From the NCBI RefSeq assembly GCF_016065055.1, contig NZ_CP065856.1:806001-870000 (forward strand): a DNA stretch of 64,000 bases, written 5' to 3'. The first letter of the stretch is position 1; each line of letters begins with the position of its first letter. This stretch comes from Halosimplex litoreum (GTDB lineage Archaea; Halobacteriota; Halobacteria; Halobacteriales; Haloarculaceae). This document shows positions 18,574 to 62,931 of the stretch, piece by piece. A program made the position numbers and the translations under genes. The notes beneath the pieces are model-generated. The model was not told where the DNA came from. It did no database searches and saw nothing but the letters and a program-made list of their open reading frames with translations.

Positions 18574-18633
18574 TCTTGCATTGGTAGCCCGGAAAGGGCC
18601 GGGCCGCGATCCTCGCGTCGCTACAGCGATGAC

Positions 18634-18711
18634 GACGACCGCATCAGGCGACGACCGTATCAGGCGACGACCGTATCAGGCGACGACCGCATCAGGCGAC
18701 GACCGCATCGG
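18634..18711. repeat. 16-bp tandem repeat, about 4.9 copies
   Basis: Unit GACGACCGYATCAGGC begins at 18634, 18650, 18666, 18682 and 18698 (last copy incomplete and diverged). Copies differ only at the Y position (C, T, T, C, C). It lies in the intergenic space upstream of the pilus promoter and downstream of the redoxin gene, whose stop is at 18735. Confidence 0.9.
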
Positions 18712-41333: not shown

Positions 41334-41444
41334 TGGTCGCCGTTTGATTACGGTCCGGGGGCTATCACCGATCACCCGCCCGGGCCGGAGGCGGGCGCAG
41401 TATCCGGTCGCTGTCACGCCCTCCGTGACGCGGACTCGACCCAT

Positions 41445-41708
41445 CCCCTCCGTCGAGTCGTCCGGTCCCCTCCGTCGAGTCGTCCGGTCCCCTCCGTCGA
41501 GTCGTCCGGTCCCCTCCGTCGAGTCGTCCGGTCCCCTCCGTCGAGTCGTCCGGTCCCCTCCGTCGAGTCGTCCGGTCCCCTCCGTCGAGTCGTCCGGTCC
41601 CCTCCGTCGAGTCGTCCGGTCCCCTCCGTCGAGTCGTCCGGTCCCCTCCGTCGAGTCGTCCGGTCCCCTCCGTCGAGTCGTCCGGTCCCCTCCGTCGAGT
41701 CGTCCGGT
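41445..41708. repeat. 22-bp tandem array, 12 perfect copies
   Basis: Copies start every 22 bases from 41445 to 41687 and are identical. The unit begins CCCCTCCGTCGAGTCG and ends TCCGGT; a thirteenth, broken copy begins at 41709 (CCCTCCGCCGG). Because 22 is not a multiple of three, each strand reads the same 22-residue pattern in all three frames, so several long frames appear open by chance. The minus strand has a G run in every unit. Zero divergence implies recent expansion or homogenisation. Confidence 0.95.
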
Positions 41709-42026
41709 CCCCTCCGCCGGACCCGCTCGTCGTCACGGGGACAGTCCACCCACCCCCTCGGCCCACCCCCTCCAACGGGGCTGGCTCCCGCCACCACCGC
41801 TGTCGGCCCCACCGCCCTGTCGGGCCGCGCCCGCCGTCTTCGGTCCCACGGCCCGTCTCTCCCGCGGCCGATTCGAGCCGGGTCCCCGCCCGCTTCGGCC
41901 CCCACGACTCGACACGGCCCCCTGCGACCACCGACTCGACTCCGGACCCGATAGGTCTCGCTGCCCGTCGACCGGAGCCGAGCGAGCGCCGAGCCAGGGA
42001 TGGAGCGACGACTCGAGTCTCCGAGT

Positions 42027-61803: not shown

Positions 61804-62931
61804 ATGATTCGACGAACGCTCGCGGTCGGGAGCGTCGCGCTGACCGGTGTTGCACTGGTCGTCGGGGCAGTGTCGAACGTCGCCGGGGCGGAGGGCGACG
61901 GCGTCGCGCTCGCGCTCGTGGCGCTCGGGGCGGTGCTGGGCACCGCGATCGTCGCCGGGGCGAGCTATCTCTATCGGAGCGACGTGGCCACCGTCCACAC
62001 GGCGCGCATCGCCGGGTGGAACCTCCTCGGGGTCGCGCTGTTGGCCGTGATCCTCGCGCTCGCTCGACTGGCGCCCGGCGTCTCGATCCCGGCCTACGTC
62101 GTCGTCGACGTGCTCGGGGTGAGTTCGGTCGCACACCTGCTCATCGGGTACAACGACGTGCGCCGCATCCGCGCGGAGGAGCTGGCTCGCCAGCGCCGCA
62201 CGCTCGCGGTCGTCAACCGACTCACCCGGCACAACCTCCGCAACCGCACCCAGATCCTCACCGGCCACGCCGCCGCGCTCGCCGAGGAACTGGACGACGA
62301 CGACCAGCGGGCCGCGGCCGAGACCATCCGCGCCACGGCCGCGGAGCTGTCCGACGTGGACGGCGAACTCGCCGCGATCCAGACGGCGCTCAACGGCGAC
62401 CGCCCGACCGGCACGGTCGACCTCGCCGACCTGGTCGAGGACGTACTCGCCCCGTACCGCGACCGCTACCCGAACGGCGAATTCGCGATCGACGTCCCCG
62501 ACGGCCTCGCTGTCCGCGGCGACGAGCAGTTGCAGGTCACGCTCGACCACCTCGTCGAGAACGCCGTGGAGCACGGCTCCACGAGCAGTCGGCCAGGGGC
62601 CGACGACGCCGTCGAGCACGGCTCGACGAGCCCTGCTTCGCAGGCTCAGCAGGACGCCGTCGAGCACGGCAGCGACGGCGACCCGTACGTCCGCGTCTCC
62701 GCCGGTCTGGACGGTGAAATCGCCAGGATCCACGTAACCGACCGCGGCCCCGGCGTCCCCGCCGACGAGGTCGCGGTGCTCACCGAGCAACGGGAGATCA
62801 GTCAGCTCGAACACGGGAGCGGGCTCGGCCTGTGGGTCGTCAAGACCGTCGCCGAGCGCTACGGTGGCGACCTGTCCGTCGAGAACGACGAGGACGGCGC
62901 CACGGTGTCGGTCGGCGTCCCGGCGGCCTGA
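61804..62931 (+). CDS. Membrane histidine kinase with repeat insertion in the N box
   Basis: 375 residues from ATG 61804. Four hydrophobic spans (RTLAVGSVALTGVALVVGAV, GVALALVALGAVLGTAIVAG, AGWNLLGVALLAVILALARL, VVDVLGVSSVAHLLIGYN) precede a phosphoacceptor region (NRLTRHNLRNRTQILTGH) and an ATPase domain: N box DHLVENAVEHGS, G1 DRGPGVP, G2 HGSGLGLWVVK. Directly after the N box, AVEHGS recurs twice more (NAVEHGSTS, DAVEHGSTS, DAVEHGSDG) with two inserted segments. Whether ATP binding survives is not evident. No response regulator gene is adjacent. Confidence 0.82.
   Translation: MIRRTLAVGSVALTGVALVVGAVSNVAGAEGDGVALALVALGAVLGTAIVAGASYLYRSDVATVHTARIAGWNLLGVALLAVILALARLAPGVSIPAYVVVDVLGVSSVAHLLIGYNDVRRIRAEELARQRRTLAVVNRLTRHNLRNRTQILTGHAAALAEELDDDDQRAAAETIRATAAELSDVDGELAAIQTALNGDRPTGTVDLADLVEDVLAPYRDRYPNGEFAIDVPDGLAVRGDEQLQVTLDHLVENAVEHGSTSSRPGADDAVEHGSTSPASQAQQDAVEHGSDGDPYVRVSAGLDGEIARIHVTDRGPGVPADEVAVLTEQREISQLEHGSGLGLWVVKTVAERYGGDLSVENDEDGATVSVGVPAA
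62563..62676 (+). repeat. Threefold in-gene repeat of the AVEHGS coding segment
   Basis: Repeats begin at 62563, 62608 and 62656 (GCCGTGGAGCACGG / GCCGTCGAGCACGG / GCCGTCGAGCACGG), spaced 45 and 48 bases, both multiples of three. The spacers contain hairpins: GTCGGCC-AGG-GGCCGAC at 62588-62604, and GAGCC...GGCTC around CTGCTTCGCA at 62628-62647. Confidence 0.85.

Follow-up and report, generated by a model that had tools for sequence, protein, structure and literature searches.

The window, that is, the whole 64,000-nt stretch of Halosimplex litoreum DNA analysed here, contains on its forward strand (to which all features of the gene given below belong) a gene for a histidine kinase of 375 amino acids with a HATPase_c domain (61804-62931), the domain being matched in the open frame with an E value of 1e-14. 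Orthologs align from the start at 61804; an alternative start at an upstream ATG (61636) is possible. The region coding for the N-box helix (62524-62574; residues 129-145 of the structure model) ends with N-A-V-E-H, and the empty orthologs read ..LVENAVEHG. Directly 3' of the N-box Asn codon AAC (62560-62562), two units are inserted in tandem: unit 1 (62563-62607; type A, 45 nt) has the arrangement GCC-P1-AGCA-P2A-GAC and encodes AVEHGSTSSRPGADD, and unit 2 (62608-62655; type B, 48 nt) has the arrangement GCC-P1-AGC-P2B-AC and encodes AVEHGSTSPASQAQQD. The native AVEHG codons, GCCGTCGAGCACGGC, are displaced downstream by both units (62656-62670), as assigned with the AAC^GCC parse and the alignment with the empty orthologs L260 and L261. 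The sequence GCCGTSGAGCACGG begins at 62563, 62608, and 62656, so that the original prediction of three AVEHGS copies spaced by 45 and 48 nt was exact. It had also placed the inserts in the ATP-binding site, which is loose wording: the structure model terminates the N-box helix at the first AVEH and places the inserts in a low-confidence loop beyond it. The N box appears intact, since the unit re-encodes AVEHG and the native copy is pushed downstream.

Each unit consists of two adjacent hairpins, GC-P1-AGC(A)-P2-GAC, with a total length of 45-51 nt. P1, which starts 2-3 nt from the left end of the unit, has an 8-bp stem and a 3-4-nt loop; P2, which stops 2-3 nt before the right end, has 7 bp and a 3-nt loop in type A and 6 bp and a 10-12-nt loop in type B, and the joint between the hairpins is AGCA before P2-A and AGC before P2-B. 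In the window kinase, P1 of unit 1 (62565-62583) is CGTGGAGC-ACG-GCTCCACG (a perfect 8 bp, loop ACG, with compensatory changes), P2-A of unit 1 (62588-62604) is GTCGGCC-AGG-GGCCGAC, P1 of unit 2 (62610-62628) is CGTCGAGC-ACG-GCTCGACG (a perfect 8 bp), and P2-B of unit 2 (62632-62653) is CCTGCT-(10 nt)-AGCAGG (arms 62632-62637 and 62648-62653, with covariation). One hairpin had been predicted in each insert: P2-A was given correctly, but there are two hairpins per unit and P1 was overlooked, and the pairing GAGCC..GGCTC given for unit 2 can be written, but the covariation backs CCTnnn/nnnAGG. The repeat region of the window folds far better than its dinucleotide shuffles (z = -4.4 as single-stranded DNA, z = -3.8 as RNA). 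Where unit 2 meets the terminal copy, with which it has codons in common, the predicted fold uses a competing hairpin between the right arm and the next left arm.

In P1, the third codon positions of Val and Glu (in VEH), which are synonymous, pair with those of Ser and Gly (in GST). Watson-Crick pairs at these positions were counted in first units in 87/91 (expected 41) and 86/91 (expected 45) cases, and those in P2-B in 116/121 (expected 61), 98/121 (expected 41), and 103/121 (expected 42) cases, all counts being taken from loci found at the protein level, with the loci found by the DNA pattern left out. Terminal VEHG copies without the following Gly-Ser-Thr have no such pairing (13/46, 12 expected). 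The stems of P2-B vary in both arms at positions that alter amino acids (for example, CGG..CCG, GAC..GTC, GCT..AGC, and CCT..AGG). The covariation score was matched by 0 of 500 shuffles for type A and likewise for type B, statistics which are inflated by kinship among the sequences, and slid structures collapse; a few rows of the alignments A2 and A3 came from loci found by the DNA pattern, which could favour P1, not P2. Because G-U pairs are rare and swaps between C-G and G-C are common in the hairpins, their upkeep at the DNA level is favoured over selection on RNA. With the Rfam covariance models, no match to the unit was obtained; two weak matches below the gathering score lay elsewhere in the loci. 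In 103 of 203 pairs of neighbouring units, both synonymous VEH sites differ (null mean 63, maximum 88 of 2,000). Since this is above chance, there seems to be avoidance of direct repeats between neighbours, or of the competing hairpin that a right arm can form with the left arm that follows.

Ten kinase genes of this genome carry units at the N-box site, as found by searches with the repeat peptide and with DNA. Among the 392 genomes of the order (one genome per species), the repeat peptide matches 307 at E values up to 1, a loose limit that includes weak matches, and the DNA pattern GTCGAGCACGGCTCGACGAGC matches 168 with two or fewer mismatches; the reversed control of the pattern gave no match among the matches listed for the 392 genomes. 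A total of 417 stretches were confirmed in the genome collection, and the 80 of these that were retained are all haloarchaeal except for one locus (L132) from a metagenome-assembled genome (MAG), a unit-bearing kinase on a contig of 5 kb assigned to the bacterium Salinivenus, for which transfer and misbinning are the two readings. From the loci, 114 distinct genes were assembled, in which the arrays have 1-7 units and the N-box position is constant; the 225 units encode 15 (n = 63), 16 (n = 149), or 17 (n = 13) residues. The searched viral contigs and phages contained no relative of the units. Chance or low complexity as the source of the repeats is excluded, because the pattern recurs in 168 of 392 genomes and its reversed control has no listed match. 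The original prediction would have fallen if no other haloarchaeal kinase had such repeats or if they came from slippage at one site; many kinases across the haloarchaea carry units, and slippage at one site was rejected since the units are neither confined to one site nor near-identical and occur also in unrelated genes with empty-site relatives (see below).

Empty and filled alleles of the window kinase occur within the genus. Two orthologs are empty (L260, NAVEHGSDDDPYVRV; L261, NAVEHGGSDRPYVRV), L258 has a single type A unit where the window kinase has A+B, and L259 has a different insert of 35 residues. Unit 2 is missing from L258, an ortholog 91% identical to the window kinase, and the P1 pair is GAA/GGT in L258 vs GAG/GGC in the window, a double change since their divergence. 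Sister kinases of different species, with flanks 95-97% identical, differ in unit content. P2 of unit 1 is identical to P2 in other kinases of the same genome, and among pairs of non-orthologous kinases (flank identity below 70%) an identical P2 was found in 12 of 62 pairs within genomes vs 34 of 4,886 between genomes, which 0 of 1,000 shuffles of the genome labels reached. Some of the spread among kinases could be by gene conversion rather than by transposition.

The distance between successive P1 cores is 42, 45, 48, or 51 nt in 184 of 185 cases, as measured on DNA with no ORF required; the single off-frame spacing (50 nt) is in a MAG contig. Stops are present in frame 0 in none of the 225 units and in the five other frames in 15-78 units. 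Because the spacing is a multiple of three and frame 0 is free of stops, the insert is, judging from sequence, almost certainly translated. The encoded peptide is hydrophilic and rich in Ser, Asp, and Glu (15-17 residues per unit). In the structure model, the inserts are low-confidence coil (residues 146-182 of the modelled fragment) before the next strand; according to this model, the N box and ATP site of the kinase are probably preserved despite the inserts, and the kinase may gain a flexible, disordered loop after the N box.

Covariance models of the type A and type B units were used for a further search of this genome, in which the non-kinase genes with in-frame copies are PheA (prephenate dehydratase), LeuRS, and a Nudix-like ORF. 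The PheA unit adds 45 nt, AAC^[GCC GCG GAA CCG AGT TCC GCG AGC AGC CAG ACG GAG TCT GGC GAC]^GCG; the gene is empty in two congeners (L292 and L293), and a covarying unit is present at the same PheA site in another genus (L291). The PheA unit is at one site in three genera (L291, L323, and L329) with the congeners of the window organism empty, by recurrent insertion, transfer, or loss. The LeuRS unit (51 nt) has a kinase-type P1 and is missing in 17 relatives (match length of 477 nt or less vs 528 nt; the sequence was checked where it was read). The Nudix-like ORF (L219, genome C1 1473851; labelled from its sequence rather than through a search of protein families) contains a type A unit that is in frame but decayed, GEARSTSGSRTQSDDGER. 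P1 is often similar to the sequence immediately downstream, for which reason a target-derived P1, whose left arm would be a copy of the host site, was weighed; it was rejected, since the P1 of the LeuRS copy is of the kinase type and is missing from the empty relatives, and P1 therefore seems to move together with the element.

A pattern in which only P2-A and the joint were fixed, P1 being unspecified, had 13 matches across the 392 genomes and none when reversed. Every one of the 13 lies on the coding strand in phase 0, and their hosts are genes for Usp (2), acyl-CoA dehydrogenase (ACAD; 1), alpha/beta hydrolase (1), flavoprotein (2), RNA-ligase-like protein (2), PheA (2), and kinases (3). 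The free positions of P1 in these matches pair in 69 of 78 cases (permuted mean 42, maximum 60), so that the sequence of P1 varies by gene and the palindrome is retained. Aligned with PDB 4n5f, the ACAD copy corresponds to a gap of exactly 15 residues; the PDB search for Usp gave no result. In the RNA-ligase-like gene (L320 and L331; G136 C3 283914 and 284148), two type A units lie 234 nt apart. A strict scan for both hairpins in 464 kb of this genome gave 6 matches vs 2, 2, and 6 in Markov controls; of the 6, the pair of window units and a single intergenic copy are the only ones that seem genuine, and perfect copies outside kinases are therefore sparse. The parse of the landing site that fits the kinase, PheA, LeuRS, and pattern matches is a codon ending with C followed by a codon starting with G. 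The left codon is usually AAC or GAC, with TAC and TTC also seen and AAT once, and under this parse the unit runs from GCC (or ACC) to GAC. The PheA and LeuRS copies are compatible with clean insertion after AAC/GAC; shared bases make the parse ambiguous, and TTC and AAT flanks occur. The proposed homology of the kinase, PheA, and LeuRS units rests on the common architecture and the short joints AGC, GAC, and SSRTxSDD.

Relatives of the units were also found between genes. The motif GAGCCCTNNNTCGCN(1-6)CTCNNNAGGAC has 15 copies in this genome, of which 9 belong to kinase arrays and the other 6 to longer intergenic repeats, and the reversed motif has 0 in this genome. These intergenic repeats (L242, L245, L253, L256, L243, and L192; genome C1 85697, 1255860, 2861513, 3658069, 297644, and 3665236) are hairpin-dense, about 150-485 nt long, and contain a P2-B-like hairpin and B-like double hairpins; they had no Rfam match. 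Within arrays, a third in-frame unit, type C, has the P1 CGACGGAG-CAAG-CTCCGTCG, whose loop CAAG is common to the intergenic units. Since the motif is in both and type C shares the CAAG loop, the coding and intergenic double hairpins look related. The type C peptide/unit DADGASSVEPSVADAPDDA was seen in L259 and in the kinase arrays L005/L010 (genome C1 1825696-1825845 and 61970-62034). B-like double hairpins do occur between genes, but the type A matches are intragenic in 13/13 and intergenic in 0/13, an odd distribution if the element inserts at random.

To our knowledge, palindromes that code for protein in frame have been described mainly in Rickettsia, and the way in which the Rickettsia palindromic elements (RPEs) move has never been resolved. 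As summarised in PMC10969869, RPEs are palindromic DNA of about 150 bp, in frame in unrelated protein genes, read in one frame with the peptide tolerated, and proposed to be selfish DNA. The haloarchaeal units are like RPEs in their in-frame insertion in several unrelated genes, hairpin-forming palindromic DNA, and empty orthologous sites; they differ in their size (45-51 bp), two tandem hairpins, tandem arrays at one kinase motif, and stems that change sequence freely yet stay paired. Membership in the RPE family proper was rejected on account of the size and of the haloarchaeal hosts. We consider it probable that the inserts are a dispersed, coding-compatible, in-frame palindromic element with its reservoir at the N box, and action in the manner of RPEs is the best reading. 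An RPE-like insert with a haloarchaeal preference for the kinase site, as originally proposed, thus holds up; of the wording that the element targets this site, the recurrence at the N box stands, but non-kinase genes carry units as well, and the recurrence could be insertion preference, tolerance, or copying between paralogs.

Several other known systems were compared. PATEs and IS200/IS605 elements are abundant in haloarchaea and have near-terminal palindromes, no inverted terminal repeats or target duplication, and a short target (PMC3119063); the unit is similar in its palindromes near both ends and differs in having neither a transposase nor a long core, with palindromes that almost abut the ends. 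REPs are extragenic and have GTAG or CGTC tags (PMC3733652). The units resemble REP/BIME with RAYT (TnpA-REP) as short hairpins, often paired and scattered over the genome, but lie in frame inside genes and lack the GTAG tag; membership was rejected from the 13/13 intragenic type A matches, though B-like intergenic copies exist. A classical MITE was rejected since P1 and P2 differ in sequence and form no single terminal inverted repeat. PARCEL, a 25-residue amphipathic motif reported to be absent from Archaea (PMC2996958), is alike in its tandem in-frame repeats, dyad-symmetric coding DNA, and proposed movement; with hydrophilic units of 15-17 residues, membership was likewise rejected. Neither the repeat peptide nor such haloarchaeal inserts were found described in the open literature, subscription papers being outside this scope and a prior description possible, and the in-frame double-hairpin element thus appears to be undescribed in Archaea. 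Compared with RPEs, the haloarchaeal units offer a far larger scale, with hundreds of copies in culturable and genetically tractable hosts, and with the empty and filled alleles and the unit turnover, the invasion of coding sequence by selfish DNA is directly testable. The units also account for the odd repeats seen in numerous annotated kinases of haloarchaea, and they illustrate how a protein can acquire a short disordered loop.

For the mechanism, we suppose that the element would be non-autonomous, would land between a codon ending with C (usually AAC/GAC) and a codon starting with G, and would be read in the one stop-free frame as the hydrophilic peptide. As our leading guess, movement may take place via single-stranded DNA, with a putative Y1/HUH (IS200/IS605-type) transposase acting in trans on the hairpins at both ends and the insertion occurring 3' of (R)AC, which resembles the GAC end of the element itself, without target duplication. 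The analogy with IS200/IS605 is drawn from the terminal hairpins, the apparent lack of target duplication, and the loose AC/GAC match, and the Y1-transposase step is regarded as possible but rather doubtful. The kinase N boxes may serve as the chief reservoir, since AAC^GCCGTSGARCACGG fits the target site, P1 of the element would re-encode AVEHG so that the motif survives the insertion, the loop after the N box would tolerate length, and each insertion would recreate the site so that arrays grow. Taken as a whole, the units would represent a class of mobile element new to Archaea, one that enters the codons of a catalytic motif, re-encodes the motif in its left hairpin, recolonises the site, leaves in-frame loops, and jumps to other genes, with arms that co-evolve as DNA; this wider proposal is tentative, and we hold it at slightly short of an even chance.

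One alternative dispenses with a mobile element: an N-box segment would have been duplicated once, the arrays resized by unequal recombination, and the copies spread among paralogs by gene conversion. Arrays of 1-7 units, the turnover of units between sister species, and the units common to paralogs of one genome are what such a process would give, but the same architecture is in frame in the PheA, LeuRS, Nudix, Usp, ACAD, hydrolase, flavoprotein, and RNA-ligase genes, the first two of which have empty relatives, P1 changes its sequence by gene while its palindrome persists, and duplication makes no pair of covarying hairpins. We regard this alternative as improbable, largely refuted by the non-kinase copies. 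The alternative that expression removes the inserts, either by bypass (as with mitochondrial byps) or by splicing as introns, is suggested by hairpin inserts of about 45 nt between repeated codons inside conserved enzymes; bypass or splicing would need neither the multiples of three in 184/185 cases nor a frame 0 that is stop-free where the other frames are not, and it is highly improbable.

Two further alternatives concern the hairpins. Intra-strand template switching (quasi-palindrome correction) could keep the hairpins perfect, the covariation then reflecting DNA folding at replication, not selection or recognition by an enzyme. The dominance of G-C to C-G swaps with nearly no G-U intermediates, and GAG/GGC in the window where L258 has GAA/GGT, agree with it; the excess of neighbours that differ at the VEH sites (103/203 vs 63) is the opposite of homogenisation via the alternative hairpin, and template switching accounts for the upkeep, not for insertion in new genes. 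It is somewhat unlikely, and it is compatible with the mobile element. The hairpins might instead be selected host features that act in mRNA (translation pausing, stability, or protein binding), or the loop length might tune the kinase, as the strong RNA folding of the region and the repeated placement at one kinase loop would suggest. The single copies in unrelated genes, the empty and filled alleles within one genus, the near-absence of G-U pairs, unlike RNA covariation, and the rapid turnover of unit number and type speak against such host functions, which we take to be quite improbable.

Two other repeats were seen in the window. A perfect 22-bp tandem repeat (41444-41716; 12.4 copies of TCCCCTCCGTCGAGTCGTCCGG, 100% identical) is apparently intergenic, and the length of its unit is not divisible by three. 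A 16-bp tandem repeat (18633-18709; 4.8 copies of CGACGACCGCATCAGG) is flanked by a secretion-type ATPase ORF and a peroxiredoxin-like ORF.
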